Assembly (NCBI GenBank): GCA_003252395.1
Contig: QKEL01000009.1
Span: 124,001 to 188,000 of the forward strand
Source: Spirochaetales bacterium
GTDB taxonomy: Bacteria > Spirochaetota > Spirochaetia > Treponematales > Treponemataceae
Direction: 5' to 3'
Length of the DNA: 64,000 bases
In this document: positions 3,748-60,629 of the stretch, piece by piece
Layout of the letters: every line of letters starts with the position of its first letter
How positions within the stretch are numbered: position 1 is the stretch's first letter
Translations under genes and position numbers: made by a program
Notes under the pieces: model-generated
Told to the model about the DNA's origin: nothing
The model's input: only the letters and a program-made list of their open reading frames with translations
Database searches by the model: none

Positions 3748-3754
3748 AGTGAAC

Positions 3755-3782
3755 AGTATAACCTATCTGGGCGGATTCGCAA
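3755..3782 (-). promoter_or_regulatory. Leaderless-type promoter of the cNMP-binding gene
   Basis: On the minus strand TTGCGA (3777-3782), a 16-nt spacer and TATACT (3755-3760) end 7 nt before the ATG at 3747. No Shine-Dalgarno is present. Transcription should start at or next to the A of the ATG. Confidence 0.6.
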
Positions 3783-5775
3783 CAAGCGCGTATTCGAGAA
3801 TCGCGGAAATGCTCGTGCCGCCCATGGGATAGCCCTCGACCAATTCATAGGATTCCCCGAGGGCGTTATTAAGGTGCACCGTAAGCTCCGCCTTCTTGGA
3901 TAGGGGTACTTGATACGACAGATCGAGGGTAAACCAGGGGGAAAGGGCGGCAACGTTGCTGGCATCCGCGAACCGGAGGCCTTCGTAGTTCCCCCGAAGG
4001 GAAAGGCGCCCTCCCAAGGCGGGAAAGGCCGCCGATAGGGCAAGGTTCTGGGGGCTTTGATAGGGCATGACCTTCCGGTTTGACCAGGAGAGGCCACGGC
4101 TTAAAAGGCGGGTGAAAAGCCACCGGTGCCGAAGCGAGAGGGTAATGTCACCGTGCGGCTTCCATTGTAGGGTTTCCTCGGTGCCCAGGTACCAGGCTTC
4201 GCCGATATTCTCGGGACGGAGTCCGGATTCGGTTCCCGACCAGAGGATGGCGTCGTCGTAATGGCTTGCCCTCAGGGTGGCGGAAAGGGAAAGGTTCCCT
4301 ACGTCCTTTTCCGTTCCCAGGGAGGCGACCCAGCCGTCCTCGCTTCGCAGATCGGGATTTCCGCTGGCCCCGGGGGTACCGGACCAATAGAGGTCGTTCA
4401 GGGACGGGAATCGGAAAGCCCTGCGGATATCTCCCCTCCAGAGGGTAGCCCCGGCGGTTCTCCAGGCAACCGCGACGGCGGGGAGGGGTACCGTACGCTT
4501 CCCGTCGGACAACAGGGCCAAGGACGGCGAAAAACTCAGGTCCGTACGGGGCGTCCATTCGGCGCCGACGCTGAGGCCCCCGCCCAGGGCTTCCCGCTTT
4601 CCGGCGTTGTCGGAAAGAACCCGGTCGTAGCGGGCGGTAGAGCCGAAGGCGAAAAAGAGCGTAGGTGCCGGGAACCATTGAAGGGCCAGGGCAGAGTAAA
4701 GCGTATCCGCGCGGTGTTCGCTCGATTCCGCCATTCCTTCCCAGGAAAGGCCCGTTCCGGCGTGGCCCAGGGTAAGCCCGCCGGATAGCCGATCCGAGCC
4801 CAGGCGCAGGGTTTCGAACCTCAGGGACTCTACCGCAAGGCTGTCCCTCTGGCGGCCGGAAAGGGTCGTCGTGTTTACGGGCCCGGGAATTTGTCTGTCC
4901 GCGCCGTGCAGGAGGGCAGAAAGCGCGAGGGTGGCCATCGCGGAAGGATGATAGAAGATCGAGGCATGGGTTCCGCCCTCGATCACGGGAGAGCGCTCCC
5001 TGATTCGCTCGGTTCCTTCGTCGTCGGTCCAGGGATAGCGGTTAGCGGCCCCCGCGAGATTGCCCCCCAGTTTCCAGTCCGCCCTCTCGCCGCCCCGTTC
5101 GCTCAGGAAAGAGGCCCTCATGAGGTCTCCCGGGGCGACGAGTAGGGGGTCGGGGAAGTCGTTGGAGAGGTAGGAAAGAACTTCGAGGGAGACCGAGGAG
5201 CGGAAACCCCGCCGGAGGGGCCCCGCGGTCGTTATGGAGAGATTCCCGCCGGGAAGGCTCGCCCCCAGGGCCGCGGAGGAGTCTACGGGGTCTCCGAGGG
5301 AGGGGGCTCCCTCCCGTACGCTCAGTCTCTCCACTGCGCCCAAAGCGAGTTCGCCGGGATCGAAGCCGCCCGAGAGGGGCGAATTTAGGGGAACCCCGTC
5401 AAGACTAATACCCACCCGGGACCCGGAAAATCCCCCCAGGGAAAGGCTCGAAACCGTGCCGAAGCCCCCGTTGGAAACGACGGAAACCCCGGTTTCCCCT
5501 TCCAAGAGCTCCGAAAGGGTACGGGCCCCGGAGTTTTCGATATCTTCCCGGCTCAGTTCCTTTGTGCCGTCGGCCGAAGGGGGAGTCGCCGCCACGGTTA
5601 TTCCCTCGGCGCTTCCCAGGTCGACCCATAGGGTTTCATCGTTCTCTTCGCTTTGGGCCGTGAGAATTCCCCCGGACACGAGGAGAATGGCGAAAAGGAT
5701 TCTGCAAGGGCGGCGCCCGTGGCGGCGCCCGTGGCGGCGCCCGTGATTTGCCGGGAGATTCCGAAACATTCGCAT
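3763..5775 (-). CDS. TonB-dependent outer-membrane receptor, probable cobalamin (BtuB-like) transporter
   Basis: The 670-residue protein has a signal peptide (Arg/His-rich n-region, then ILFAILLVSGGILTAQ, about residues 26-41). A TonB-dependent receptor plug follows at about 60-165 (EDIENSGARTLSELLEGETG, then LDGVPLNSPLSGGFDPGEL and VERLSVREG). The rest is a beta-rich C-terminal barrel. It should import a scarce ligand across the outer membrane using TonB-ExbBD energy. The operon is led by a cobalamin riboswitch, so the ligand is very likely a corrinoid; plug and barrel resemble BtuB. It lies 12 nt after the lipoprotein gene. The ATG at 5775 has no strong ribosome-binding site, and the ATG at 5769 is an alternative. 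Confidence 0.88.
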   Translation of the reverse strand: MRMFRNLPANHGRRHGRRHGRRPCRILFAILLVSGGILTAQSEENDETLWVDLGSAEGITVAATPPSADGTKELSREDIENSGARTLSELLEGETGVSVVSNGGFGTVSSLSLGGFSGSRVGISLDGVPLNSPLSGGFDPGELALGAVERLSVREGAPSLGDPVDSSAALGASLPGGNLSITTAGPLRRGFRSSVSLEVLSYLSNDFPDPLLVAPGDLMRASFLSERGGERADWKLGGNLAGAANRYPWTDDEGTERIRERSPVIEGGTHASIFYHPSAMATLALSALLHGADRQIPGPVNTTTLSGRQRDSLAVESLRFETLRLGSDRLSGGLTLGHAGTGLSWEGMAESSEHRADTLYSALALQWFPAPTLFFAFGSTARYDRVLSDNAGKREALGGGLSVGAEWTPRTDLSFSPSLALLSDGKRTVPLPAVAVAWRTAGATLWRGDIRRAFRFPSLNDLYWSGTPGASGNPDLRSEDGWVASLGTEKDVGNLSLSATLRASHYDDAILWSGTESGLRPENIGEAWYLGTEETLQWKPHGDITLSLRHRWLFTRLLSRGLSWSNRKVMPYQSPQNLALSAAFPALGGRLSLRGNYEGLRFADASNVAALSPWFTLDLSYQVPLSKKAELTVHLNNALGESYELVEGYPMGGTSISAILEYALVANPPR
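5711..5746. repeat. 12-bp tandem repeat, three copies, inside the receptor signal peptide
   Basis: CGGCGCCCGTGG occurs three times in direct succession (the last copy has one change). On the coding strand it adds repeated HGRR units to the signal-peptide n-region. The 12-bp unit keeps the reading frame, so copy-number change would alter positive charge and not switch expression off. Confidence 0.85.
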
Positions 5776-5787
5776 GATTCGTCGAAC

Positions 5788-6357
5788 TTACTGCCGTTCG
5801 TAGGGGCCTAGGACGTCGAAGTAGCCGTTCTCCTTGGTCAGTTCCGCCTCCGCGTCCTCCCGGGTCGCGAGGCCCGCGTTTCCCGGAGCGGGGGTTCCGT
5901 TCGTATACTTACCGGCGCCGCCTTGCTTAATGCCCCTCGCTCCCAGTTCTTCCCAGCGGAGGACGTAGTACGTCCCTTCCAGGGGGGCGTATACCTCGCC
6001 GCTTTCGGTAACGTGAATAGTCAAATATCCGGCCGTAGCGGTTAGGTCCGGCTCATTGACGACGATTCCGCCGTAATTCGACGTGGGATAGCTTGGGCTC
6101 ACGTAGGCAAATTGATAGCCTGCGTCTGCCTTTGTCAGGGAGAACCCGTCTCCGAAGGACGAAACCCAGGTCCCCACGACCGAGGGAACCGCTGCGGCCG
6201 GATCATCCTCTCCCCCCATGAGGGCGCAGCCCGCGAAGGCGAACGAGGCGAAGGCGGTTAGGACCGCGAGCGCGATTGCCGCGGCGGGCCGTCTCGGGGC
6301 GATGCGCGCCGCCGAACGGCGCTCCGGCGATTCCTGTGGGGAAAAACGCGTAAACAT
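5788..6357 (-). CDS. Lipoprotein of unknown function, first gene of the B12-riboswitch operon
   Basis: From the ATG at 6357, chosen because AAGGAG lies six bases upstream, the product has 189 residues. It has a long basic n-region, a hydrophobic segment AAAIALAVLTAFASFAFAGC and a lipobox cysteine at residue 44, so it should be lipid-anchored. The mature part starts with the acidic GGEDD and then a small beta-rich domain (VVGTWVSSFGDGFSL, YVSPSYPTSNYGGIV, TIHVTESGEVY). I recognise no family with confidence; the VVGTW...GF start is lipocalin-like only in a loose sense. It is co-transcribed with the TonB-dependent receptor, so a role in corrinoid capture or receptor assembly is a reasonable inference. 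An in-frame start ten codons earlier has no ribosome-binding site. Confidence 0.8.
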   Translation of the reverse strand: MFTRFSPQESPERRSAARIAPRRPAAAIALAVLTAFASFAFAGCALMGGEDDPAAAVPSVVGTWVSSFGDGFSLTKADAGYQFAYVSPSYPTSNYGGIVVNEPDLTATAGYLTIHVTESGEVYAPLEGTYYVLRWEELGARGIKQGGAGKYTNGTPAPGNAGLATREDAEAELTKENGYFDVLGPYERQ

Positions 6358-6504
6358 GATGCACTCCTTATGGCTTCGGCGGCCCACGACGGGCCGAATC
6401 CGAAGAAAGGAGCCTGAGCAAAACCGGACATGCCTTCATCCGAAAAGGGGAAAGGGGGAACGGTTTTCCAGACTCAATCCTCGAAGTCCGAAAAAAAAAC
6501 GAAT

Positions 6505-6690: not shown

Positions 6691-6747
6691 CGTCTTCCGT
6701 CAAGCGAGCGGGGGAATGGGCCGATACATCCATTGTCGGAGCAACGA

Positions 6748-7593: not shown

Positions 7594-7666
7594 CGGAACG
7601 AAGCGGTCCCGCCCGCGATGGATGTGACCGGATTCCCTATCTCATAGTTTTTTGCTAGGATACCTC

Positions 7667-8377
7667 ATGGCAAATCCGAAGCTGTTCAGGATAATCGACC
7701 ACGGGGTCAGCGAGTACGCGATGATTGAGGAGGGGGACCGCATCCTCATCGGCGCCTCGGGCGGCAAGGATTCCACGGCGCTGGCGGAGTATTTCGGTTC
7801 CCTCCTCAGGCGCCCGTCCGGTCCCCGATTCGAGGCCGCCGCCCTCCACGTTTCCACCGAAATCGGCTCTCCCCTCGCGCCGGAACTCGCCGCGCGCTTC
7901 GATTCGTGGGGAATTCCCCTCCAAACGGTAACGCTCTCGGTGCTCGGTCGGCTGAAGCCGGGCCGTAAGATGAATTGCTGGTGGTGTTCCACCCAGCGAC
8001 GCACCGAACTGAACGAGTTCGCGATGCGCGAAGGGTACAACAAAATCGCCCTGGGCCACCACCTGGACGATATCCTCGAAACCCTCTTGATGAACGCCCT
8101 GACGAAGGGCGAGCTCTCGACCATGCCGCCCCGGCTCGCCTACGACAAATATCCCATCACGATTATCCGGCCCCTGTGCTTCGCCGATATACCGACCATC
8201 GTGCGCCACGCCACGGAGCGGGGCTATATCTCCTCTACCTGTACCTGCACGTACCAGGACAATTCGGGGAGGAAAGAGGCGAGAGGCCGCCTGGAGGCGC
8301 TGACGGGGGGAAGGTACGACGAAAAGAGAAAGCTCTTCGAGGCGCTCAGGAACGTGAAAACCGATTACTTGCCCTGA
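7667..8377 (+). CDS. ttcA: TtcA-like tRNA 2-thiocytidine biosynthesis protein (PP-loop ATPase)
   Basis: The 236-residue protein carries the PP-loop SGGKDS at residues 31-36. It also has a CxxC pair (NCWWCSTQRR, near 102-107), ALGHHLDDILETLLMN, and a later Cys cluster STCTCTYQ, the arrangement of TtcA-type enzymes that hold an Fe-S cluster and thiolate C32 of tRNA. The length fits compact TtcA homologues. I chose ATG 7667 (AGGA before it) over an in-frame TTG at 7652. A TAGGAT hexamer only 5 nt before the ATG might instead make this a leaderless start. Other PP-loop tRNA thiolases cannot be fully excluded. The 3' end overlaps the convergent cyclase gene by 13 nt. Confidence 0.85.
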   Translation: MANPKLFRIIDHGVSEYAMIEEGDRILIGASGGKDSTALAEYFGSLLRRPSGPRFEAAALHVSTEIGSPLAPELAARFDSWGIPLQTVTLSVLGRLKPGRKMNCWWCSTQRRTELNEFAMREGYNKIALGHHLDDILETLLMNALTKGELSTMPPRLAYDKYPITIIRPLCFADIPTIVRHATERGYISSTCTCTYQDNSGRKEARGRLEALTGGRYDEKRKLFEALRNVKTDYLP

Positions 8378-9861: not shown

Positions 9862-9888
9862 GGGATAATCCTACTCCTCAAGTATGCG

Positions 9889-14471: not shown

Positions 14472-15777
14472 TGCGGCACTCCTTTAAAAGCGCGGCGAAG
14501 AGGGCTTCGCGGTCGGGATCGGCCGTTCCGTACAGGCTTTCCTCAAAGGCGCGGAAATCGTCAACGGCGTTTCTTCGCGCCCCCGTTTGGGCCGCCTGGT
14601 CGCCCGCGAGGGCGTCCCCTTCCGGGTCGGGGAGGGCGTTTTTCTCAAGGGCGGCCTGACGGACGCTCAGGAGCCAGGGATAGCGGGGCTTGAGGAGATT
14701 CATCGGATTCGCGACGATTTCGCCGTCGGTGAGGGAAATTTCAAGATAATGGTCGGCCCAGGGTTCCCGGGAAGGCGCGGAGTAAAAGGAGTCAAAGGCC
14801 CCCGCCTTCCGGGAAACGGGGCGCAGGGCCGCGACGGGAAGGGGGTTCACGGTAACGGGGAAGCCCGGTTTTTCGGCGTCTATTTCTACGTTCAGGAAGG
14901 CCTTTTCCGTTCCGGCCTCGTCGAAGGCGTAGACGAGCGGCGCGCCGGCGTAGTGGATGCGCTCGGAAACCCGTTGCCGCTTGTGCAGGTGCCCCAGGGC
15001 GACGTAGGAAAAGCCGGAAAAGAGGGCGGGGTCGACCCGTTCGGCGGTTCCCAAAAATACCCGTTCGGAATCGGAGGGATCGCCGCCCAGGGCATAGCAG
15101 TGGGCGACGAGAACGGTTGGCATGCCCCGAATCGCCTCGTCGGCAAGGGCGACACGGAACCGGCGGGCCGCCTCGGCGGCGAGTTCCGCCTGGCTCGCGA
15201 GCAGGGCGTTGGCCGGCGGCGGCGACGGGACTTGAGCGGAAAAGTCGAATTCGAGGGCGAGCTCGCCCTGCGGTGTCGCCTTGTCCGCCCCAGCGGCGGC
15301 CCTTTCGCCCCCTCCCGCCGTGGCGCTCCCTGCGTCAATCTCCCTTCCCCCGGTCAGTTTGAGGCTTCCGGGAGCGAGGAAGGGCAGGAGGAAGAAGGCG
15401 GCGCGGCTTTTTCCCCGACCGGCGACGATGGGGGTAAAGGATTGTTCGGGATTGCAGATAATATAAATGCCCTGCGCGCCGAGAAGGGGCGAGGCGAACG
15501 ACAGTCGTTGCGCGGAGTCGTGGTTTCCGGGTATGATAAAGATGTCCAGGCTTGGCGCCTCGCGCTTGAGTTTCACCAGAAAGTCGCTGAACAGGGCGAC
15601 CGCCTCGGCGCTCGGTACCGTTCGATCGTACACGTCGCCCGCGACGACGAGCGCGTCGTAGTCCCCGTTCGCGAGGAGAAGCCGCAAGCCGTCCAGCATA
15701 TGCCTTTGGTCTTCGATCAGCGACGTTTCGTGGAGGGTTTTTCCGAGGTGCAGATCGCCGGTCTGGAGCAGTTTCAT
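14461..15777 (-). CDS. sbcD: Exonuclease SbcD (Mre11-like nuclease subunit)
   Basis: The 438-residue metallophosphoesterase nuclease is the partner of SbcC. Metal-binding motifs are visible in order: TGDLHLGK (6-13), VVAGDVYDRT, IIPGNHDSAQR, VLVAHCY and YVALGHLHKRQ. The C-terminal part (about 290-438) matches the SbcD capping domain by position. The ATG at 15777 has no Shine-Dalgarno but sits 6 nt after a -10 element. It is the first gene of the minus-strand run sbcD-sbcC-pncB-cyclase. Confidence 0.95.
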   Translation of the reverse strand: MKLLQTGDLHLGKTLHETSLIEDQRHMLDGLRLLLANGDYDALVVAGDVYDRTVPSAEAVALFSDFLVKLKREAPSLDIFIIPGNHDSAQRLSFASPLLGAQGIYIICNPEQSFTPIVAGRGKSRAAFFLLPFLAPGSLKLTGGREIDAGSATAGGGERAAAGADKATPQGELALEFDFSAQVPSPPPANALLASQAELAAEAARRFRVALADEAIRGMPTVLVAHCYALGGDPSDSERVFLGTAERVDPALFSGFSYVALGHLHKRQRVSERIHYAGAPLVYAFDEAGTEKAFLNVEIDAEKPGFPVTVNPLPVAALRPVSRKAGAFDSFYSAPSREPWADHYLEISLTDGEIVANPMNLLKPRYPWLLSVRQAALEKNALPDPEGDALAGDQAAQTGARRNAVDDFRAFEESLYGTADPDREALFAALLKECRSEA

Positions 15778-15783
15778 ACGTAT

Positions 15784-15812
15784 AATTTATGTGCTATGGC
15801 CGCCCGTGTAAA
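15784..15812 (-). promoter_or_regulatory. Leaderless-type promoter of sbcD
   Basis: On the minus strand TTTACA (15807-15812), a 17-nt spacer and TAAATT (15784-15789) end 6 nt before the sbcD ATG. The same AT-rich patch gives TATAAT on the plus strand (15781-15786), a possible -10 for the divergent chemoreceptor gene, so the two promoters would overlap. Confidence 0.55.
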
Positions 15813-15838: not shown

Positions 15839-17662
15839 ATGAATACACCGGTCAAGGCGGCTTTGTTCGCCCTCGCGATTGCCTTTCTCGCGGCCTGCAC
15901 GGCCGGGGTGTTTTTGGTCGCCGTCGCGCCGACCGCGGGGCTTCAGGCGGATTATAACGCGTACGAGTCCCTTTCGCTCGCGCTTTCCCGGCTTCGCTCC
16001 GGGCTGTACCGAAGCGGGACGCATCCCTTCGCGGACGGACTGGAGCGGTTTTCCGGGGAGCTCGAATACCTTGAAGCTGCGTCGGCGCGGGTCGATTCGG
16101 TGGACCCGGCCCTGGCCGACTCGCTTTCCGGCCGCACGGCCCTCATCGACGACGCCAAAGCCTGGCTCGCTTCGTACCGCACCCTCTATGCACTCGCCCA
16201 GGAAGCCCTGGATTCGTCCCTTCCCCTGAGTCCCCGCTCCCTCTACGCGGAAGCCGGCTCCGGCGCGCCCCTTTCCGTTATAGACTCAGCCTCCCTCTCC
16301 GCGGCCCGGCGCCTGGCCGATTCCCACGCGCAAGCCGCCGCAGACCTGGCGGAGCGCGCCCAGGCCCTGGTGGCGGAAATCGAGCGGGCGACGCCGGCGG
16401 TTGCGGCTTCCATTCAGCGGTGGCGGTTTACCGCTTATGCCGTTTCCGGCGCGATCATCGTGATTACCTGGCTTTTGGGCCTGTTCGCCATGTGGCTGTT
16501 CGCGCGATCGGTTTCCCGCTCGGCGCGGCATATCCGCTCGGCCTTCGAGACCGGCTCGGAGGGGAATATCAGCGAGGGCCTCGCGCGTATCCGCACGGGG
16601 CGCGGCGACGGCCTTTCGGCCAGCGCGGGCCGTTTCGTGGGGCGCATATCGGAGCTGGTCGCCTCGGTAAAGGAAGACGTGGGCCGGACGGTGGAATCCA
16701 GCGCGGAGCTTTCGGCCTCGGTGGAAACCACCGCGTCTACCTTCGAGGTGGTGGACGGCTTTATCGAAAGCATTCGGGGCGAGGTGACGGTGCTCGAGGA
16801 GCAGGTTCGGGGCGTAAAGGCCTCGCTCGAGCGGGTGACCGGGGGCCTCAATCGGCTGGACGAGCGGATCGCGAACCAAAACGTGCTGGTGGAAAAGTCC
16901 ACCGCCGCGGCGAGCACGGTCATCGATACGATTATCGACATGGCGGAGACGGCCGTGGCCGACGAACGGCGGGTAAAGAACCTTTTACGGTCCTCGGAAA
17001 CCGGGCAAACCCTTTTTTCGTCCACTTCGGAAAAGATATCCCTTATCAACGACAGCGTGGCCCGGATCAACGGCATGGCCGAGGTTATCGAGAATATCGC
17101 CGAGCAGACGAACATGCTTGCCCTGAACGCCGCGATCGAGGCGGCGCACGCGGGTTCGAGCGGGAAGGGCTTCGCCGTGGTGGCCGAGGAGATAACCAAG
17201 CTCGCCGACGCCAGTTCCGAAAGCTCGCGCGAGATCGCCGAGTCCATCGAGGAAATCGTGCTCAATATCACGGAAATGGTAAGCTATTCCAACCGGCTCG
17301 ATACGGCCTTCGAGGAGATCACCGGCGATATCGGCACGGTGAGCGCCACGATTACCCGGTTTTCCACCGGCCTGGTGGACTCAAGCGGCCTCGCCGAATC
17401 CGTGCGGGTTTCCATGGAGAGCCTCAGGGAAGAAACCGGCGAAATTACCCGCGATTCCGGTTCCATGGCCGAGGGCGCGGGCGAGATAGCCCGTTCCATG
17501 GGCGAGTTGGACATGATATCAAGCCGCGTATTCGACGGCATTACCGCCATGTCCCTCATGCTGGACGGCCTCAAGGACGTGCTGGGCCAGTTCAAGGCCC
17601 ACGCCGAGACCATGAAGAGCTCCGGCCTGGAGATGGACAGAAAGCTGTCGCTGTTGAAGTGA
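15839..17662 (+). CDS. Methyl-accepting chemotaxis protein
   Basis: The ATG at 15839 follows GGGGGA; an in-frame GTG at 15815 has no usable ribosome-binding site. The 607-residue receptor has transmembrane helix 1 at about residues 5-25, a periplasmic four-helix-type sensor of about 165 residues, and transmembrane helix 2 near 198-222 ([21 protein letters not shown]). A short, degenerate HAMP-like linker follows. The cytoplasmic signalling hairpin contains [20 protein letters not shown] and [20 protein letters not shown], the tip that binds CheA/CheW. The ligand cannot be predicted. It heads a collinear plus-strand series with the malic enzyme gene 30 nt downstream, an odd partner. Confidence 0.93.
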
Positions 17663-17692
17663 GACGGGGTTTCATGGTAACGTTTGCGCACC

Positions 17693-19204
17693 ATGAAACT
17701 CGATACCACGCTCAATAACCTCGCAGACGCCTTTCCTCGGGACTTTTCGGAGGACGAAAAGGCCTCGGCGAAAACCATCTTCCTGAAAAAACTGTCCCTG
17801 CTCGCCCACGCCTTTTACGGCGGCAAGATGCAGACCCTGCCCAAGTGCGGCCTTTCGGGCTTTAACTGGTTCAACGTGTGGTATACGCCGGGCGTGTCCG
17901 CCGTTTCCACGGGGATTCGCGACGATAACGACCGGTCCTTCACCCTTTCCAACCGGGGAAACCTGGTCGCGGTGGTGAGTAACTCCACCCGGGTGTTGGG
18001 CGACGGCGACTGTACGCCTCCCGGGGGGCTCGGGGTCATGGAAGGCAAGGCGATGCTCATGAAGTATCTCGGGGGGGTGGATTCCATCGCCCTGTGCGTG
18101 GATTCCCGGGCGCGGGAAGACGAGGCCGCCGCGCGGGGCGTTCCCGCGGGCAAAAACGACCCCAAGAAAATCATCGAGTTCGTGCGGATGCTGGAGCCCT
18201 CGGTGGGGGCGGTGAACCTTGAGGATATCAGCCAGCCCGACTGCTTCGAGGTGCTCGATACCCTGCGGGAAACCTGCGATATTCCCGTGTGGCACGACGA
18301 CGCCCAGGGGACCGCCTGCATTACCCTGGCCGGCCTCCTGAACGCGTTGAAGCTTGCGGGCAAAAAGCTCTCCGAAGCGAAGATCGTGCTCCTCGGCGCG
18401 GGAGCCTCCAATACTACCATCGCCCGGCTCATCCTCGCCGACGGCGGCGACCCGGCCAAAATGATCGTGTGCGATTCCCGGGGCGCCCTGCACGCGGGCC
18501 GCGCGGACGTGGAAAAGGATACGCGCTATTACCGAAAGTGGGAACTGTGCCGTTCGACCAACCCCGGCCGGATCGAGACCGTGGAAGAGGCCATGAAGGG
18601 CGCCGACGTGCTGATCGCCCTTTCCACCCCCGGCCCCGATACGGTCAAAAAGGAATGGATCGCCTCCATGGCGCCTAAGTCCATCGTATTCACCTGCGCC
18701 AATCCGGTGCCGGAGATTTGGCCCCACGACGCGAAGGCCGCGGGAGCCTTTATCGTGGGCACCGGCCGGGGCGACTTCCCGAACCAGGTGAACAATTCCG
18801 TGTGCTTCCCCGGCATTCTCAAAGGCGCCCTGCTCGTGCGGGCGAAAAAGATCACCGACGGCATGGCCATAGCCTGCTCGCACTCGATCGCCGACTATTC
18901 CGAGAAAAAGGGAATCGACGTGGACCATATCGTGGTCAATATGGAAGATTCCGGCGTATTCGCGGTAGAGGCCGCGGACGTGGCCATGAAGGCGATCGAG
19001 GAAGGCGTCGCCCGGCTCGAGCTTGACTGGGCCACCGTGCACGACCTGGCCGCGGCGGATATCGACCAGGCCAGGCGGGCCACGAAGCTCCTGATGGACA
19101 AGGGCTTCATCGCCGACCCGCCCGAATCCATGCTGGAAGAGGCGATGGAGTACGCCGTCGCCGCCATAACCGAGAAACGGGCCGCCGGGAGCCGCCTCTC
19201 CTGA
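17693..19204 (+). CDS. NAD(P)-dependent malic enzyme
   Basis: The 503-residue protein performs oxidative decarboxylation of malate to pyruvate. Family hallmarks are YTPGVSAVSTGI, GVMEGKAMLMK, the divalent-metal segment NLEDISQPDCFEVLDTLRE, WHDDAQGTACITLAGLLNAL, a Rossmann motif VLLGAGASNTTIARL, and TCANPVPEIWP. The C-terminal portion extends the short bacterial (MaeB-like catalytic) form, without a phosphotransacetylase domain. Cofactor choice (NAD or NADP) is undecided. ATG 17693 was chosen over an in-frame TTG at 17684. The stop is 2 nt before the transporter gene. Confidence 0.92.
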   Translation: MKLDTTLNNLADAFPRDFSEDEKASAKTIFLKKLSLLAHAFYGGKMQTLPKCGLSGFNWFNVWYTPGVSAVSTGIRDDNDRSFTLSNRGNLVAVVSNSTRVLGDGDCTPPGGLGVMEGKAMLMKYLGGVDSIALCVDSRAREDEAAARGVPAGKNDPKKIIEFVRMLEPSVGAVNLEDISQPDCFEVLDTLRETCDIPVWHDDAQGTACITLAGLLNALKLAGKKLSEAKIVLLGAGASNTTIARLILADGGDPAKMIVCDSRGALHAGRADVEKDTRYYRKWELCRSTNPGRIETVEEAMKGADVLIALSTPGPDTVKKEWIASMAPKSIVFTCANPVPEIWPHDAKAAGAFIVGTGRGDFPNQVNNSVCFPGILKGALLVRAKKITDGMAIACSHSIADYSEKKGIDVDHIVVNMEDSGVFAVEAADVAMKAIEEGVARLELDWATVHDLAAADIDQARRATKLLMDKGFIADPPESMLEEAMEYAVAAITEKRAAGSRLS

Positions 19205-23184: not shown

Positions 23185-24318
23185 TTACGCTCCCGCGCCG
23201 TCAGTTTTGTGACGCGCCAGGGACGCCCGCTCCAAAAGCCCTTCGCAATAGAGGGTAGAGCGATTTCGCCCGCCTTCCTTTGAGCGGTACAGGGCCTTGT
23301 CGGCGTCTTCCACGAGCTTTATGGCGGTAATTCCCGGAACCGGCCTAATCAGGCGGGCTCCCAGGCTGATGGTGACGGATAAGGGTCCTGACCCGTCCGG
23401 GGCGGGTACCTCAAGCCGGGAAACCGCCGTTCTGATCCGTTCGGCCACGAGCAGTAACCCGTCCGCGTCGCAGTCCGCCAAGAGAACCGTGAATTCCTCG
23501 CCTCCAAAGCGCGCCGGGCAGTCCTCCCCGCGCACCAGGGCTTTCAGCTCGTTCGCGATATGGATCAACACCTCGTCGCCGGTAACGTGGCCCCAGGTAT
23601 CGTTGAACCGCTTGAAATGGTCAACGTCCATCATGATTATTCCCGAGGTCGTGTTGCGCCGTCGGGTGTGGGCGATGGCCTCTTCAAGGCGTCGATTGAA
23701 ATAGTCGTGGGTAAAAAGGCCCGTCTTCGGTTCCGTGATGGAGCTTTCGTAGTGAAGTCCGTTTTGGACGCTCACCGAAAGGAAGCGGATCATGCGGTCA
23801 ACGTATTTCTTTTCCAGTTCGGTATAGCCGCTTCCCACGATTTTTTTGCCCAGAATGACGATGCCGTACAGTCCGCCGATGCCGAACATGGGAAAAATGA
23901 CCTCGGGCTGAAGCCTTCGGAAATCCTCCCCGAATACCTCGGGACCGAGCTCGCTTTCCAGGTCGGCAAAATCGGCCCCGGCGGGGTTGGCGTTGAATCG
24001 GAGCCTGAAAATTTCCCAATACAGTTGGGGAATCCGGTCCGCGCTTTCCTTGAGATTGCGGTAGCAGTATTGTCGGTTGGTGGTTCCCCGGGGCGGCTTG
24101 ACGATAAAGCCCAAAAACTGGGGAATGAAGTGGTCGAGTATTTTCGCGATGAAAAAATCGAGCATGGAGTTTACGTCGGTATAGGCCAAAAGCAGGGCTG
24201 CGTCGTTGATTATCCGTTCAAGTTCCCGGTTTTCTTTCCTTAAATCGCCGAGGGCATCCAGGGCGCCCGACTTTTCAAGCTGATTGAACTGTGTTAACAC
24301 GTCCGCAGAGATTGGCAT
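23185..24318 (-). CDS. Diguanylate cyclase (GGDEF) with N-terminal GAF-like sensor
   Basis: The 377-residue protein ends in a GGDEF domain with intact active site GGEEF at about residues 272-276. The inhibitory I-site RGED lies five residues before it, so it should make cyclic di-GMP and be product-inhibited. MDVDHFKRFNDTWGHVTGDEVL is the usual metal and guanine-binding region. Residues about 30-195 look like a GAF-type sensor. There is a short coiled-coil lead and no membrane helix, so the enzyme is cytosolic. The ATG at 24318 is preceded by a near-consensus promoter 6 nt away. It is divergent from the AmmeMemoRadiSam operon. Confidence 0.92.
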   Translation of the reverse strand: MPISADVLTQFNQLEKSGALDALGDLRKENRELERIINDAALLLAYTDVNSMLDFFIAKILDHFIPQFLGFIVKPPRGTTNRQYCYRNLKESADRIPQLYWEIFRLRFNANPAGADFADLESELGPEVFGEDFRRLQPEVIFPMFGIGGLYGIVILGKKIVGSGYTELEKKYVDRMIRFLSVSVQNGLHYESSITEPKTGLFTHDYFNRRLEEAIAHTRRRNTTSGIIMMDVDHFKRFNDTWGHVTGDEVLIHIANELKALVRGEDCPARFGGEEFTVLLADCDADGLLLVAERIRTAVSRLEVPAPDGSGPLSVTISLGARLIRPVPGITAIKLVEDADKALYRSKEGGRNRSTLYCEGLLERASLARHKTDGAGA

Positions 24319-24324
24319 GTCCAA

Positions 24325-24353
24325 ATTGTAAGGCTTTTTTCCGGAAATGTCAC
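24325..24353 (-). promoter_or_regulatory. Leaderless-type promoter of the diguanylate cyclase gene
   Basis: GTGACA (24348-24353), a 17-nt spacer and TACAAT (24325-24330) on the minus strand end 6 nt before the ATG at 24318. This is the clearest near-consensus promoter placed directly at a start codon in the window. Confidence 0.65.
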
Positions 24354-24374
24354 CAAATGGATTCGAAAGACGCC

Positions 24375-24380
24375 TATACT
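24375..24380 (+). promoter_or_regulatory. -10 element of the amrB operon, leaderless type
   Basis: TATACT ends 6 nt before the ATG at 24387. No good -35 hexamer is seen at 16-18 nt; the upstream DNA is shared with the divergent diguanylate cyclase promoter. No Shine-Dalgarno is present. Confidence 0.5.
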
Positions 24381-24386
24381 TTAAGC

Positions 24387-25208
24387 ATGGTTGCCAACGA
24401 ATACGCGCTGTACGGTTTGCTCCTCCCCCATCCCCCGGTATTGGTACCCGCGGTCGGGGGCGGTCGCGAATCGGACGCGGGAATAACCCTCGCCGGGCTT
24501 CAGAAGGCCGCTGAACGGTTTCGGGACTTCGCGCCCGAAACGGTGGTGATAATATCTCCCCATGCGCCCCTGTATCGGGATTACCTTTTCGTGTATCGCC
24601 AAAACCCGCTTTCGGGATCCTTCGCCGCCTTCGGCGCGGGCGACGCGCGGCTATCCTTTCCGGAAGATTCGGAATTCGCCGAAGTCCTTTTGGAAAACCT
24701 CGCCAAGGCGGGCATAAACGCGGGCTCCGAGGGCGCCCAGGAAACGGGAGCCCTTGATCACGGCGCGCTGGTACCGCTGTGGTTCCTGTCCCGCGCGTAC
24801 CCGAACTTCTCCCTGGTCGCGCTTTCCCAATCGGCCTTGCCCGAGCGGGATATCCTCGCGGCGGGCGCCTGCGTCGCCGAAACCGCCCTCCGACTCTCCC
24901 GCCGCGTCTGCGTCGTCGCCAGCGGCGATATGTCGCACCGGGTTAACCGGTCGAGTCCCTACGGCATGCGAGTGGAGGGCGCGCGGTTCGACGCCGCGGT
25001 ATGCGACGCCTTGCGCGCGTCCGCCCCCGGCGCGATACGGAAAATAGACCCGCGCGTGCGGGAAGCCGCCGGCGAATGCGGGTATCGTTCCATCGTGATG
25101 CTCGAGGGCGCCATGCCCGACGCCCGAACCGCGCTTCTCTCCTACGAGGCCCCGTTCGGCATCGGGTACTGCGCGGCGGAGTTTACGAACCCGGAGGCGC
25201 GCGCATGA
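24387..25208 (+). CDS. amrB: AmmeMemoRadiSam system protein B (Memo-like)
   Basis: The 273-residue protein belongs to the Memo / class III extradiol dioxygenase-like fold. Metal-site histidines are seen in LLLPHPPVLVPAVGGG (H15), ISPHAPLYRDY and ETGALDHGALVPLWF, with SGDMSHRV later. Its biochemical role is not established. Earlier in-frame starts to 24291 would run through the promoter, so ATG 24387 was chosen. The 3' end overlaps the AMMECR1 gene by 4 nt, and the radical SAM gene follows, giving the full three-gene set. Confidence 0.88.
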   Translation: MVANEYALYGLLLPHPPVLVPAVGGGRESDAGITLAGLQKAAERFRDFAPETVVIISPHAPLYRDYLFVYRQNPLSGSFAAFGAGDARLSFPEDSEFAEVLLENLAKAGINAGSEGAQETGALDHGALVPLWFLSRAYPNFSLVALSQSALPERDILAAGACVAETALRLSRRVCVVASGDMSHRVNRSSPYGMRVEGARFDAAVCDALRASAPGAIRKIDPRVREAAGECGYRSIVMLEGAMPDARTALLSYEAPFGIGYCAAEFTNPEARA

Positions 25209-26659: not shown

Positions 26660-26688
26660 TTGTGGGTACGGGAAATCGGGGGTATAAT
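26660..26688 (+). promoter_or_regulatory. Leaderless-type promoter of the FHA-phosphatase-kinase operon
   Basis: TTGTGG (26660-26665), a 17-nt spacer and a perfect TATAAT (26683-26688) end 6 nt before the ATG at 26695, so the expected start site is the A of the ATG. No Shine-Dalgarno is present. Confidence 0.7.
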
Positions 26689-26694
26689 CGGCGT

Positions 26695-27039
26695 ATGCAG
26701 GACGAAACCATAATCACCACGAGTAAAATCGGCCAACGGCTCGACGCCATCGTCAAGAAGGAACAGGTCTCTTACCTCATGTTCGACACCGGGCAAATCC
26801 CCATGGTCAGCACCATAACCATCGGGCGGTCCTCGGATAACGACGTGGTGATCGACAACAAGCTCGCGAGCCGGCATCACGCGGTGATTCAAAAAATCAA
26901 GGACGACTACTATATCAAGGATCTCGGCAGTACCAACGGCACCTTCCTCAACGGCGAGACTATCCCCAAGGACAAATACGTGAAGCTGGGCCACCAGGAC
27001 ACGATTTCCATCGGGAAGACGAACCTGACCATAGGCTGA
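26695..27039 (+). CDS. FHA-domain protein
   Basis: The 114-residue protein is essentially one forkhead-associated domain that binds phosphothreonine. Conserved contacts are IGRSSDNDVV (43-52), SRHHAVI (59-65) and LGSTNGTFLNG (77-87). A 40-residue N-terminal tail contains TT residues that could be phosphorylated. With the next two genes (phosphatase, 1-nt overlap; kinase) it forms a write-erase-read set, so it probably reads the mark made by the neighbouring kinase (inference). The start at ATG 26695 is set by the promoter just upstream. Confidence 0.93.
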   Translation: MQDETIITTSKIGQRLDAIVKKEQVSYLMFDTGQIPMVSTITIGRSSDNDVVIDNKLASRHHAVIQKIKDDYYIKDLGSTNGTFLNGETIPKDKYVKLGHQDTISIGKTNLTIG

Positions 27040-32481: not shown

Positions 32482-32488
32482 TCCGTCT

Positions 32489-32517
32489 ATTTTACGCCCT
32501 AAGCCGGGGTTTCACAA
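32489..32517 (-). promoter_or_regulatory. Leaderless-type promoter of the acyltransferase-symporter operon
   Basis: TTGTGA (32512-32517), a 17-nt spacer and TAAAAT (32489-32494) on the minus strand end 7 nt before the ATG at 32481. The -35 shares bases with the divergent promoter's -35. Confidence 0.6.
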
Positions 32518-32539
32518 GCTCCCCCTTTCGGTGTACTAT
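32511..32539 (+). promoter_or_regulatory. Leaderless-type promoter of the B12-binding radical SAM gene
   Basis: TTCACA (32511-32516, five of six consensus bases), a 17-nt spacer and TACTAT (32534-32539) end 8 nt before the ATG at 32548. Its -35 overlaps that of the divergent acyltransferase promoter. Confidence 0.6.
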
Positions 32540-32547
32540 CCGGGACC

Positions 32548-38084: not shown

Positions 38085-38114
38085 TTGACCCCCCGGGCGT
38101 TTCCGGCGTACAAA
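38085..38114 (+). promoter_or_regulatory. Leaderless-type promoter of the ThrE-family gene
   Basis: TTGACC (38085-38090), an 18-nt spacer and TACAAA (38109-38114) end 7 nt before the ATG at 38122. No Shine-Dalgarno is present. Confidence 0.6.
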
Positions 38115-38121
38115 GGCTGTC

Positions 38122-39390
38122 ATGACGGAGCGAAAGATCGCCGACATGGACGGCATTCTCGATATCGCCCTTGAATCGGGCACGCTGATCCTGCAAAGCG
38201 GCGGGGAAACCTACCGCACCGAGGAAACCATGATAACCGTGGCCGAATCCCTGGGCGCCGCGGAGGCCTCGGCCTTCGTTACCCCGACGGTCGCGATACT
38301 CACCTGCGTGGACGCCGAGGGCCGAAGCCGGACGAAACTGCGGCGCATCGTATCCCGTACCATTAATCTGGGAACCATCGCCCGGGTGAACGCGCTTTCC
38401 CGGCGCATCGAGGGGCGGCGGCCCCGCAACGATCTTCCCCTCATCACGGCCCTGCTCGCCCGCATCCGTTCCATCCCGGAACGGCCCGTATTCGCCGTGT
38501 CGTTCGCCACCGCCGTCGCGAGCTTTTGCTTTTCCCTCATGTTCCGGGGAACGCCGGGCGAGGCGTTGACTGCCGCCGCGATCGGCAGCCTGATGCGGCT
38601 CTTCCTTTTCGCGCTTGCGCCCCTGGCCCTTTCGGGCTTTATCTATAACGCTCTCGGCGGCGCGGTCATTTCGCTGCTTTCCGGTCTGGCCGTCATGGCG
38701 GGGCTCGTCGGATCGGGGGGCAACGTGAGCATTTCGGTGCTTATGTCCCTCGTTCCCGGCCTCGCGATCGTTAACGCGATTCGCGATATTATCGCCGGCG
38801 ACCTGGTGGCCGGTTCCGCCCGGCTTATGGAAGCCTTCGTTATCGCCGCGGCCCTTTCCCTGGGCGCTGCCTTCGGGCTCCTCGTGTTTCCCGTCGGCGG
38901 GGCGTACGCGGCGGCCACGGGCTTTCACGAATCGCTGGGCCTGTCCTTTCTTCTATCCGCCCTCGCCGCGGGCTCCTTCGCGTATTTCTTCCATATTAGC
39001 AAATACGATATCTTCTGGACCTCAGTGGCCGGCGGCTTCGGCTGGATCACCTTCCTCGTGCTTCAGCGGAGCCTGGGCGCCCCCATCGCCGCGTATCTGG
39101 CCGGGGCGCTTTGCGTGGGCCTTATCTCGGAAATTCTCGCCATCGTTTTCCGCAAGCCCGCCACGGTCTATATCGTTTCCGGGGTCATCCCCTTCGTTCC
39201 GGGGGGCGGCATGTACGAGACCATGCTCTATTCCACCCTCGGCAATATGGACGCCGCGGCCAGGACGGGCTTTCAGACCCTCAGCGCCGCCGCCGCGATC
39301 GCGGTGGGCATAGCGGTCGCGTCGTCGGTGGCCAGGCTCGCGGCACGGTTTATCAAATCCCGGAACCGCGGTCGCCGACCTGCCCGGTGA
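38122..39390 (+). CDS. ThrE-family threonine/serine exporter, fused two-part form
   Basis: The 422-residue membrane protein starts with the ThrE domain lead (LDIALESGTLILQSGGETYRTEETM), followed by about ten membrane helices. It contains both the DUF1212-like N-terminal and the DUF3815-like C-terminal halves (VVSG.IPFVPGGGMYETM near the end), which are separate genes in many bacteria. It probably exports threonine or serine, which would fit the nearby homoserine/threonine gene thrA, though that link is inference. The last 38 nt overlap the convergent CBS-domain gene. Confidence 0.88.
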   Translation: MTERKIADMDGILDIALESGTLILQSGGETYRTEETMITVAESLGAAEASAFVTPTVAILTCVDAEGRSRTKLRRIVSRTINLGTIARVNALSRRIEGRRPRNDLPLITALLARIRSIPERPVFAVSFATAVASFCFSLMFRGTPGEALTAAAIGSLMRLFLFALAPLALSGFIYNALGGAVISLLSGLAVMAGLVGSGGNVSISVLMSLVPGLAIVNAIRDIIAGDLVAGSARLMEAFVIAAALSLGAAFGLLVFPVGGAYAAATGFHESLGLSFLLSALAAGSFAYFFHISKYDIFWTSVAGGFGWITFLVLQRSLGAPIAAYLAGALCVGLISEILAIVFRKPATVYIVSGVIPFVPGGGMYETMLYSTLGNMDAAARTGFQTLSAAAAIAVGIAVASSVARLAARFIKSRNRGRRPAR

Positions 39391-40114
39391 CGCGGACCTT
39401 GTTGATTCTGTTTCCGTCCATCTCGATCACTTCCCACCGGTAACCCCCGGCCATAATCGCGTCTCCCGCCTTGGGAATCGAGCCGTTGGCCGTGAGAAGG
39501 TATCCCGCGAGGGTGTAGTATTCCCCGCTGTCCTCCTCGATGCCTTCCAGGTCGTAGCTTTCGAGAATTTCTTCCATTCTGGTCTGGCCGTCTATGCAGC
39601 GCCCCCCTTGGTCTTCCGCCGACTCGACCGTAACCCTGGTCTCTTCCAGCAATTCCCCCACCAAGCCGTTCCTGGTGACTATGCCCTCGATACCGCCGTA
39701 CTCGTCGATAATAAAGGCCATTCTGCTTTGCGCCTCGTCTAGGGCCTGAAGCGCCTTCAGAATCGTGACGGTTTCGCTGAGGAACACCGGTTTTTTGACT
39801 ATTTCCCGCAGGCCGGGCCACGAGGGCTCGAGAAGGGTCTCCAGGAAATGGCGGACCGAGACGGTTCCGAGAACCTTATCTACGGAGCCGGAACATACCG
39901 GAAATTGGGTAAAACCCGGATTAGCCGCCATTATGCGGCGAATGGCGTCCCCGTTGGAGGCCGCGTCGATCCAAACGATGTCGGGGCGGTGGGTCATGCA
40001 CGATCCTATCCTGCGGTCCGAGGGAAGGAATATGCCGCCTTTCACGGCGTTGGCGGGATTCAGTTCTTCCGGCGAGGATCGCTTCAAGCCGGCGAATAAA
40101 GCGCTCATTTTCAT
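39353..40114 (-). CDS. CBS-pair and CorC/HlyC-domain protein lacking a membrane domain
   Basis: From ATG 40114 the product has 253 residues. CBS motifs are visible in the middle (ASNGDAIRRIMAANPGFTQFPVC, LGTVSVRHFL, then MAFIIDEYGGIEGIVTRNGLV). The C-terminal 80 residues form the FAD-binding-like CorC/HlyC transporter-associated domain (EYYTLAGYLL, WEVIEMDGNRINKVRV). The DUF21 membrane domain that usually precedes these is missing, so it is CorC-like and soluble, perhaps acting in magnesium or cobalt homeostasis. Further-upstream in-frame starts to 40189 are unlikely. TACACT lies 6 nt before the ATG. Confidence 0.85.
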   Translation of the reverse strand: MKMSALFAGLKRSSPEELNPANAVKGGIFLPSDRRIGSCMTHRPDIVWIDAASNGDAIRRIMAANPGFTQFPVCSGSVDKVLGTVSVRHFLETLLEPSWPGLREIVKKPVFLSETVTILKALQALDEAQSRMAFIIDEYGGIEGIVTRNGLVGELLEETRVTVESAEDQGGRCIDGQTRMEEILESYDLEGIEEDSGEYYTLAGYLLTANGSIPKAGDAIMAGGYRWEVIEMDGNRINKVRVTGQVGDRGSGI

Positions 40115-40184
40115 GGTGTAAGTGTAGCATACGGGCAGGGTTTTGGTGCAGATGTAATTTTCTTGCATGAAAAGTGCATAAATA

Positions 40185-40198
40185 TGCAATAACGTCTA
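40185..40198. promoter_or_regulatory. Palindromic candidate operator upstream of thrA
   Basis: TGCATAAATATGCA is a perfect inverted repeat with a 2-nt centre. An outer TTGCAT (40173-40178) also pairs with ATGCAA (40194-40199). It lies about 25 nt before the TATAAA (40223-40228) of thrA, in the divergent gap with the CBS gene. The pattern loosely recalls ARG-box operators, but no regulator can be named. Confidence 0.4.
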
Positions 40199-45304: not shown

Positions 45305-46508
45305 GGGGTTCCCTTAGGAAATCCCGGGCGAGAAGGTGGCGCACCCCGTCGGGGGTGAGCCCTTCCCCTTCCGCCGGGCCCGTCGGGTCAATCAGGTATT
45401 TGGGCCATCCGTCGCGGATCGAGAGCAGGGCGCGGTATTTACGGATTCTCTCCCCCGCGGTTGCCGCGTTTCCCACGGACTGAACGTACATACGCCTCCC
45501 TCGGGCCTCGCACACGAAGGAGATTTCTTCCTTTCTTTCCCGCCCCGCGTCCAGCCGGCCCTGACGAACGTTCCATCCCGCGCCCTTGAGGCTCAGGAAG
45601 AGCAGATTGCGCAATGCCCGATCGGACTCCCCGGCGTTATCCCGCCCGGTAAACGCCGCGCGCAGGCCATTATCCCCGAAATACCATACCTGCGCGGACC
45701 GTAACTCCCGGCCCGCCGAGAGATCGATCATCGGAACGGGTATGATCAGTCCCGACAGACGGCACGCCTCGAGGTAATCGATGACCGATTGGGGCGAAAG
45801 GCCGCAGGAACTCCCCTCCAGGGCGTCGCGAATTTCCCGGGCCGAAAGAATCTCGCCCATGTGGGCGGCCAAAAGGGAAAGCATGGGGCGAATCGCGGCG
45901 GGGTTCCGCAAGGAAAGGTGTTCCACGATTTGGGTGAGAAGGAAGGAATTAACCCGCATCTCGAGCAGTTCGCGGTTTCGCGCGTCGTCGGCGGGGAATA
46001 GGCCCGAATCGGGGAGTCCCCCCGTACGCGCGTAGGCTTGAAGGGCCGTGGCTGAATCCCGCAGGTTTCTGTCGGCGAGCCATTCGGGGTAGGAGAGGGG
46101 GGGAATGGCCACCCGTGCGACCGATTCCCGGCCGAAGCGATTTTCAAGGGCCTCGGCCAAGGCGACGGTCCTCTCCCCGGTGGCGATGATCCTGGTATCG
46201 CCCCGAGTAAGGATTTCCCCGAAGGCGTCCAGGTAGCCCTGGATCCTATCGGCGTTATCCAGGCACAACGCGGAGGGTCCAATGCCCAAGCCGCGGGCAG
46301 CGGCGCTCAGTTCGCGGCCTGAGACGATTCCGTGACCGCTTTTCAGGTGGATAACGTGGACGGGCGGGCTTGAGGCGCGGAGTTCTTTTACCGCCGCGCT
46401 GAGGGTCCATGACTTCCCTGAACGGTGAAGTCCGTCCAGCACGACGATTCGGTATCGGGTTGCTGCCGTGAGGATCGCTTGATATAGATTTGAACGGGTA
46501 TACTGCAT
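45279..46508 (-). CDS. AAA ATPase of the DUF4143 / AAA_14 type
   Basis: The 409-residue protein has an N-terminal AAA_14 domain with Walker A GLHRSGKSW, Walker B-like LCLDNADRI, and IIATGERTVALAE as sensor segment. A C-terminal DUF4143-like region follows (SFLLTQIVEHLSLRN, WYFGDNGLRAAF), ending in a small nuclease-like fold with EISFVCEARGRRMYVQS. Proteins of this family are widespread and mostly uncharacterised; some occur with defence or toxin modules, but no partner is seen here. It breaks the orientation of the amino-acid genes around it. The start site fits a leaderless promoter. Confidence 0.85.
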   Translation of the reverse strand: MQYTRSNLYQAILTAATRYRIVVLDGLHRSGKSWTLSAAVKELRASSPPVHVIHLKSGHGIVSGRELSAAARGLGIGPSALCLDNADRIQGYLDAFGEILTRGDTRIIATGERTVALAEALENRFGRESVARVAIPPLSYPEWLADRNLRDSATALQAYARTGGLPDSGLFPADDARNRELLEMRVNSFLLTQIVEHLSLRNPAAIRPMLSLLAAHMGEILSAREIRDALEGSSCGLSPQSVIDYLEACRLSGLIIPVPMIDLSAGRELRSAQVWYFGDNGLRAAFTGRDNAGESDRALRNLLFLSLKGAGWNVRQGRLDAGRERKEEISFVCEARGRRMYVQSVGNAATAGERIRKYRALLSIRDGWPKYLIDPTGPAEGEGLTPDGVRHLLARDFLREPLIPERPVP

Positions 46509-46517
46509 TATTTGTTT

Positions 46518-46547
46518 ATTATAATGGACAAAACTATTATTTGTAAA
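46518..46547 (-). promoter_or_regulatory. Leaderless-type promoter of the AAA ATPase gene
   Basis: On the minus strand TTTACA (46542-46547), an 18-nt spacer and TATAAT (46518-46523) end 9 nt before the ATG at 46508. The patch is unusually AT-rich and holds two direct copies of ATTATTTGT (46507-46515 and 46536-46544), a possible regulator site. Confidence 0.6.
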
Positions 46548-55920: not shown

Positions 55921-55925
55921 CCACG

Positions 55926-57164: not shown

Positions 57165-57174
57165 TTGCTATAGT
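57145..57174 (+). promoter_or_regulatory. dapL promoter
   Basis: TTGAAC (57145-57150), an 18-nt spacer and TATAGT (57169-57174), partly inside the end of the SGNH gene. The leader is about 22 nt with GGAGA before the ATG. Confidence 0.5.
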
Positions 57175-57202
57175 TTCGCAAACACATAAAACGGAGACCC
57201 GC

Positions 57203-58435: not shown

Positions 58436-58460
58436 TACGGCCTAATTCCCGCGAAAAAAA

Positions 58461-58490
58461 ACGGCGTTTCCGAAAGGGAACGCCGTCTTA
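58461..58490. terminator. Bidirectional intrinsic terminator
   Basis: Stem ACGGCGTTTCC (58461-58471) pairs with GGGAACGCCGT (58476-58486) around a GAAA loop, with one G-T pair. CTTATTTT follows on the plus strand, and a run of A (58454-58460) provides T on the minus strand. It serves both dapL and the convergent outer-membrane gene. Confidence 0.9.
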
Positions 58491-58506
58491 TTTTCCGTAG
58501 GCTCCC

Positions 58507-60509: not shown

Positions 60510-60530
60510 CATTTCTCCTTAAAACAGTAT

Positions 60531-60548
60531 ATACTATAAAAATAGTAT
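60531..60548. promoter_or_regulatory. AT-rich perfect inverted repeat between the outer-membrane operon and cheA
   Basis: ATACTAT, a 4-nt centre and ATAGTAT (60531-60548) form a perfect palindrome upstream of the outer-membrane pair and about 80 nt from cheA. A second hairpin-like GGGC...GCCC lies at 60550-60563. They could be an operator or an RNA hairpin in the 5' leader. Confidence 0.45.
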
Positions 60549-60592
60549 CGGGCTATAACGCCCCAAAAAAAAGACGCCCGACCTATAATAGC

Positions 60593-60620
60593 TTGACTAA
60601 TGATGAAAACCGTATAAACT
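60593..60620 (+). promoter_or_regulatory. Leaderless-type promoter of cheA
   Basis: TTGACT (60593-60598), a 16-nt spacer and TAAACT (60615-60620; TATAAA overlaps at 60613) end 9 nt before the ATG at 60630. No Shine-Dalgarno is present. Confidence 0.5.
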
Positions 60621-60629
60621 TGACAATAT

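Follow-up and report, generated by a model that had tools for sequence, protein, structure and literature searches.

Predicted leaderless or nearly leaderless gene starts in a treponeme-like spirochaete, with conservation of single cases in related genomes

Background

Leaderless mRNAs, on which ribosomes bind the 5′-terminal AUG directly, are already known, and the spirochaetes, which include Leptospira, are among the groups that have them. According to Zheng et al. 2011 (PMC3160421), leaderless genes are predicted in six of 18 Spirochaetes, at an average of 3.9% of genes (range 1.8 to 6.9%), and the averages for Deinococcus-Thermus and Actinobacteria are 39.4% and 19.2% of genes. For Leptospira interrogans, the differential RNA sequencing (dRNA-seq) study of Zhukova et al. 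2017 (PMC5243855) gives 430–450 genes with a 5′ end at most 10 nucleotides (nt) from the start codon, and 244 and 231 genes at two temperatures with a 5′ end at 0 or −1. The subject here is a stretch of 64,000 nt from a Spirochaetales bacterium, called the window below (contig QKEL01000009.1, positions 124,001–188,000; assembly of 3.41 Mb in 15 contigs), and the gene starts within it that have no Shine-Dalgarno (SD) motif but a promoter-like −10 hexamer ending just before the start codon. The closest named relatives are uncultured Spirochaetales (SZUA-438, with 69% identity for the B12-radical SAM protein; Spiro_09; Treponema sp. MAG11) followed by Treponema species, which agrees with an earlier note on this DNA that had presumed a spirochaete. 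No 16S rRNA gene was found in the assembly, so the anti-SD sequence could not be read, and no tRNA gene was found within the window.

The gene starts described here are like the TA-led genes of the Zheng et al. survey (PMC3160421), where the SD motif gives way to TANNNT some 12 nt upstream of the start; the ThrE gene of the window has TACAAA, without the final T. Unlike in that survey, single leaderless-type genes are named here and are conserved in related spirochaetes, neither of which was found in its accessible part. The architecture is also that of Deinococcus-Thermus and Actinobacteria, whereas the excess in this genome amounts to only about 6% of genes, against the far higher averages quoted above. 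In L. interrogans the 5′ ends were mapped while here they are predicted, and that study (PMC5243855) describes sigma-54 sites and no other common promoter motif, in contrast to the TTGACA-17-TATAAT-like sites found here. The earlier note had regarded such a density of close promoters as unexpected in a spirochaete. This is not supported, given the six predicted genomes and the mapped Leptospira 5′ ends of the two papers, and the figure of about 6%, obtained by a different method, lies within the predicted range. What was not met in the literature searched is the deep conservation, above all that of cheA, and the concentration on short divergent spacers. Among the papers listed in that search, in which subscription journals were poorly covered, none was to the point on leaderless genes in treponemes, on treponeme start-site maps or on the start of cheA, and none reported a class-wide cheA arrangement, leaderless divergent pairs in spirochaetes or a short-spacer concentration. 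The analysis assigns predicted leaderless initiation to the treponeme-like spirochaete branch and names genes for it.

Promoter position at gene starts

Eleven starts in the window had been said to carry a −10 hexamer ending 6–9 nt before the start codon with no SD motif, and re-reading bore this out at all 11. A −35 with at least four of six matches to TTGACA at a spacer of 16–18 nt, described before as usual, is present at eight of them, namely the genes for the cNMP-binding protein, SbcD, diguanylate cyclase (DGC), acyltransferase, B12-radical SAM protein, ThrE, AAA ATPase and CheA. The −35 is weak (3/6) at amrB, where the spacer is 19 nt, and at the FHA and CBS genes.

Gene-start statistics were taken from the window and 400 kb of the same genome (464 kb, 359 genes with context), using a simple gene caller of our own that relies on codon usage and start-codon type and is blind to upstream signals. 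Starts were classed as divergent (n = 96), tandem first with a gap of at least 40 bp (n = 93), intermediate (n = 23) or operon-internal (n = 147), the first two classes forming the 189 first genes. A close −10 was defined as TANNNT beginning at −15 to −11, with control windows at −35 to −31 and −45 to −41 and, for first genes, a chance expectation from 500 shuffles. Of the 189 first genes, 38 have a close TANNNT hexamer, more than chance gives, since the shuffles had a mean of 15.3 (sd 3.7) and never exceeded 26. By class, the counts are 28/96 divergent, 10/93 tandem first, 5/23 intermediate and 5/147 internal, compared with 13, 14, 2 and 5 in the nearer control window and 11, 5, 0 and 5 in the farther one, and the excess is at the divergent starts. 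It comes to about 23 of the 359 genes net (about 6%), a figure that misses at least two starts misplaced by the caller (amrB and CorC/CBS). A scan that allowed alternative in-frame ATGs and required a −35 of at least 3/6 found 28/189 first genes with the −10 at 5–8 nt against 3–15 at seven other distances; the corresponding numbers for internal genes are 6/147 and 1–6. The string TATAATN{6,7}ATG is present 41 times in this genome, against 19 for the frame-matched N{12,13}. The window itself does not differ significantly in density from the remaining sample (8/25 vs 30/164, Fisher p = 0.12), and the idea that it is exceptional within its genome is unsupported.

The 38 carriers start with ATG in 36 cases and GTG in two. 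SD 4-mers are found at only 2/38 carriers (1/28 divergent, 1/10 tandem) compared with 85/151 of the other first genes (36/68 and 49/83, respectively). Downstream genes of operons had been said to have ordinary ribosome-binding sites, and SD motifs are indeed present at 89/147 operon-internal genes. When the 38 sites are aligned on TANNNT alone, T, T and G emerge unselected at −23, −22 and −21 from the −10 (25, 20 and 18 of 38), which corresponds to a 17 nt spacer. A −35 of at least 4/6 is found at spacer 17 in 9/39 sites, and the other spacers between 12 and 23 have 0–4 such sites each; for spacers 16–18 combined, the count is 15/39 close sites, compared with 23/140 TANNNT sites farther upstream of first genes and 9/61 upstream of internal genes. 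The close TANNNT hexamers are predicted to be the −10 elements of promoters whose −35 stands at a spacer of about 17 nt.

The usual distance from the −10 to the first transcribed base is about 7 nt, so a −10 ending 6 nt before the ATG would make the A of the ATG the first base, while at cheA and the AAA ATPase gene the first base would lie a few nucleotides upstream. Leaderless or nearly leaderless mRNAs with a 0–5 nt leader, transcribed from close sigma-70-type promoters, are with high probability the best explanation of these starts. Such promoters (TTGaca, about 17 nt, TANNNT) would start transcription on the A of the start codon itself or at most about 5 nt upstream of it, and the resulting messages, leaderless or nearly so, would be initiated without SD pairing, ribosomes presumably binding the 5′-terminal AUG directly as they do on leaderless mRNAs elsewhere. 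Later genes of the same operons would use SD-led initiation, so both modes would coexist, and the leaderless state would be most frequent at gene pairs that diverge from a short spacer. The earlier claim that transcription begins at or near the A of the ATG is well supported by promoter position, −35, near exclusion of SD motifs and conservation, from which we infer where the mRNAs begin; how ribosomes bind them is presumed from leaderless mRNAs elsewhere. At cheA and the AAA ATPase gene a leader of a few nucleotides is more likely than none.

Conservation in related genomes

Within same-genus genomes, the matches to several window proteins cluster on shared contigs, which makes these stretches comparable. 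Matches starting past residue 40, or with the nearest start more than 45 nt away, were left out. For nine first genes of the window with TANNNT at −16 to −11 (the amrB start being set to 24387), the −10 is kept in 55/61 orthologues at 37–83% protein identity, and an SD motif is present in 3/61. The orthologues of 16 other first genes have a close −10 in 3/49 and an SD motif in 30/49 cases, those of 17 internal genes in 0/75 and 49/75, and those of six intermediate genes in 5/28 and 9/28, with all five of the latter −10s belonging to the malic enzyme gene. Ten of the 11 named starts are supported by orthologues, although B12-radical SAM only weakly and ThrE by eye. In samples from five same-genus genomes, close −10s were found at 9/31, 4/33, 9/38, 3/16 and 3/13 first genes, against shuffled values of 3.2, 1.6, 3.8, 2.8 and 1.4. 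The leaderless-type state is, as predicted from these comparisons, a property of individual genes, passed on with each gene inside the genus and, in the case of cheA, class-wide, the same class of the compared genomes being taken as Spirochaetia.

The close −10 of cheA is kept in 7/7 same-genus orthologues. Beyond the genus, 27 of 30 closer loci, from genus to order and including the window's own, could be read (G005, G017 and G032 gave partial or other CheA-like matches), together with 29 of 30 wider-class loci obtained from a total of 61 matching genomes, the own locus being counted in the closer set. Neither the 27 wider-class genomes lacking a match at 1e-100 nor the 31 further matching genomes for which no locus was given, family f7 among them, are informative in either direction. 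CheA identity falls to 57% among the loci read. TTGAC is present at −41 to −32 in 26/27 closer and 28/29 wider-class loci (54/56), and an SD 4-mer at −20 to −4 in 3/27 and 1/29, respectively. In all 27 closer loci, the −10 ranked best by an automatic promoter search lies at most 14 nt from the ATG. A cheA leader of a few nucleotides at most is implied by these promoter positions in most loci of the class. A more tentative reading, to which we give somewhat less than even weight, takes leaderless initiation for an ancient trait of Spirochaetia that is specific to particular genes and actively maintained; the near-leaderless cheA promoter (CTTGACT, its TTGAC lying 34–40 nt before the ATG) would then predate the radiation of the class, suggesting selection on how the message is translated, for instance so that it resists initiation control or is read by ribosomes that have not dissociated. 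Should the near-leaderless start of cheA prove ancestral, it could be used to ask whether leaderless messages are retained for a function.

Divergent spacers and alternative explanations

Divergent starts of the leaderless type are concentrated on short spacers, with 26/62 in this genome below 150 bp and 2/34 above (Fisher p = 1.3e-4), and 42/110 vs 7/66 when pooled with the genus relatives (p = 5.5e-5). With a spacer of 17 nt assumed, the −35 windows overlap by 2 bp in the DGC/amrB pair (68 bp spacer) and by 5 bp in the acyltransferase/B12-radical SAM pair (66 bp), so that two polymerases might compete there. Both the concentration and the overlaps favour the view that leaderless starts are merely a by-product of fitting both promoters of a divergent pair into little space, an account that we consider unlikely but deserving of some weight. 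The DGC/amrB spacer is 53–80 bp in this genome and six relatives, yet it reaches 126 bp in relative G005 and 122 bp in G010, and both close −10s are retained there; packing may thus favour the leaderless state without fully explaining it. The FHA and PP-loop ATPase genes are tandem, the cheA spacer is 117 bp, tandem genes follow no such spacing trend, and neither genome G034 nor the Thermus plasmid pTT27 has a concentration on short spacers.

It is improbable that the −10s are real while the mRNAs in use carry leaders, made from other promoters upstream or read from other in-frame start codons. The start codons are themselves predictions, and the caller put that of amrB at 24357 and that of CorC/CBS at 40168, which gives this account some room; it also illustrates how callers that ignore leaderless starts misplace start codons. 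However, SD motifs are rare at these starts in the orthologues, the short DGC/amrB spacers leave scant space for a further promoter, and in most relatives the matches to sbcD and cheA run from residue 1, at the same ATG. Chance or composition, by which the AT-richer start regions of a 62% G+C window would give functionless −10-like hexamers, is very improbable and was rejected for the gene set on start counts, shuffles, −35 spacing and orthologue retention, for although the sequence upstream of first genes has about 49–50% G+C and the shuffled expectation of 15.3/189 is above zero, the excess sits at one position, is absent at internal starts, comes with an unselected −35 at 17 nt and is matched by a −10 in 55/61 orthologues.

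Several results weigh against leaderless or nearly leaderless mRNAs as the explanation. Tandem first genes have no excess of close −10s (10/93 vs 14 and 5 in the control windows), and a second, leadered promoter is possible at any single gene. No clear gene-level excess over the shuffled values was obtained for G010 (3/16 vs 2.8), G034 (16/91 vs 14.0), G218 (10/50 vs 7.1), G113 (17/47 vs 14.1) or G061 (13/66 vs 20.3). The −10 of the B12-radical SAM gene is kept in just 3/8 orthologues, which makes it a weak case. In the wider-class cheA loci the automatic search put the best −10 at most 14 nt from the ATG in only 21/29, and the −10 spacings of cheA and the AAA ATPase gene (9–11 nt) point to a short leader and not to zero.

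Distribution across lineages

The comparison of TATAATN{6,7}ATG with its frame-matched control gave 4557 vs 3196 over all 39 same-class genomes, with signal above control in 36/39, and 7160 vs 6975 in the first 40 of 159 other-class genomes, with signal above control in 25/40. Within the class, no TATAAT signal was found in families f6 and f9 and little in f7 (1.17); outside it, f30 alone of 23 families stands out (1.37, p = 0.003). The strict TATAAT string is weak in AT-rich genomes and the Leptospira study reports no such boxes upstream of its start sites (PMC5243855), so these counts do not argue for an absence of leaderless genes from other classes. At the gene level, genome G027 has an excess (7/114 vs shuffled 2.2). 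As controls of the pipeline, Thermus plasmid pTT27 gave 13/66 (shuffled 2.3), Deinococcus plasmid MP1 5/23 (1.2) and Escherichia coli 6/83 (8.2, no excess).

Individual gene starts in the window

The start region of the cNMP-binding gene (Pfam cNMP_binding) lies at 3745–3782 on the minus strand, with a −35 TTGCGA at spacer 16 and a −10 TATACT (3755–3760) ending 7 nt before the ATG at 3747; no orthologue was found in the compared stretches of relatives. A PP-loop ATPase gene (Pfam ATP_bind_3), absent from the earlier note, starts within 7633–7669 on the plus strand, where a weak −35 precedes a −10 TAGGAT (7656–7661) 5 nt before the ATG at 7667, and the −10 is kept in 4/4 orthologues. The sbcD start, with sbcC as the next gene, is at 15775–15812 (minus strand) and has a −35 TTTACA (15807–15812), spacer 17, and a −10 TAAATT (15784–15789) 6 nt before the ATG at 15777. 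This −10 is kept in 7/7 genus orthologues, and by eye a single genome in family f3 and another in f4 also have the arrangement, the −10 there being the G+C-rich TAGGCT. The malic enzyme gene (Pfam malic), likewise absent from the earlier note, follows a same-strand gene after 30 bp, and its start region at 17654–17695 (plus strand) contains a −35 TTGAAG that overlaps the end of the upstream gene and a −10 TAACGT 9 nt before the ATG at 17693. In 5/5 orthologues TATTTT or TATTCT stands 6–7 nt before the ATG (by eye), and the gene probably has a leaderless-type promoter of its own.

The DGC gene (Pfam GGDEF) starts within 24316–24353 on the minus strand, with a −35 GTGACA (24348–24353), spacer 17, and a −10 TACAAT (24325–24330) 6 nt before the ATG at 24318, the −10 being kept in 10/10 orthologues. 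Diverging from it is amrB, whose start region at 24350–24389 (plus strand) has a −10 TATACT (24375–24380) 6 nt before the ATG at 24387 and a weak −35 region that overlaps the −35 of the DGC promoter; the −10 is kept in 9/10 orthologues. LigB (PF02900) is the sole Pfam family detected in the amrB gene (24387–25208) at E 1e-5. The FHA gene (Pfam FHA) starts within 26660–26697 (plus strand) and has a weak −35 TTGTGG, spacer 17, and a −10 TATAAT (26683–26688) 6 nt before the ATG at 26695, kept in 4/4 orthologues.

The gene called an acyltransferase in the earlier note starts within 32479–32517 (minus strand), with a −35 TTGTGA (32512–32517), spacer 17, and a −10 TAAAAT 7 nt before the ATG at 32481. 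The −10 is kept in 7/7 orthologues; the gene (31117–32481) has no Pfam family at E 1e-5, though both gene and promoter are present in seven genus relatives. The divergent B12-radical SAM start at 32511–32550 (plus strand) has a −35 TTCACA (32511–32516) on almost the same base pairs as the acyltransferase −35, spacer 17, and a −10 TACTAT 8 nt before the ATG at 32548. At ThrE (38085–38124, plus strand), a −35 TTGACC with spacer 18 is followed by the −10 TACAAA 7 nt before the ATG at 38122, and 6/7 orthologues have TTGAC and then TACAA (five) or TAAAA (one) near the ATG (by eye, the final T of TANNNT being absent).

The CorC/CBS gene (Pfam CorC_HlyC and CBS) starts within 40112–40150 on the minus strand, with a weak −35 and a −10 TACACT (40121–40126) 6 nt before the ATG at 40114. 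Of eight usable orthologues, seven have TANNNT at −17 to −11 of an in-frame ATG, a window slightly wider than for the other genes; G003 was excluded since its locus is truncated. CorC/CBS is separated from the aspartokinase-homoserine dehydrogenase gene by a spacer with an inverted repeat, TGCATA-TT-TATGCA (40175–40188), that by eye is exact in G002, G004, G006 and G011, has one change in G010 and is not seen in G001 and G008. It is a possible candidate for a regulator site.

The AAA/DUF4143 start at 46506–46547 (minus strand) has a −35 TTTACA, spacer 18, and a −10 TATAAT (46518–46523) 9 nt before the ATG at 46508, and the −10 is kept in 4/4 orthologues. This −10 lies within an inverted repeat at 46511–46532 on the minus strand, imperfect in this genome, G010 and G008, and relative G001 has a perfect 18-bp palindrome, TGTCTATTATAATAGACA, at the same promoter (all by eye). 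The palindrome resembles a repressor operator that would cover the promoter of this nearly leaderless gene. The cheA start at 60593–60632 (plus strand) has a −35 TTGACT (60593–60598), spacer 16, and a −10 TAAACT (60615–60620) 9 nt before the ATG at 60630, with TATAAA, 11 nt before the ATG, as an alternative reading of the −10. The conserved block around the cheA −35 is wider than the hexamer and reads CTTGACTtaa in loci L222–L250; this extended consensus may exceed the needs of plain sigma-70 recognition, and a bound regulator is possible.

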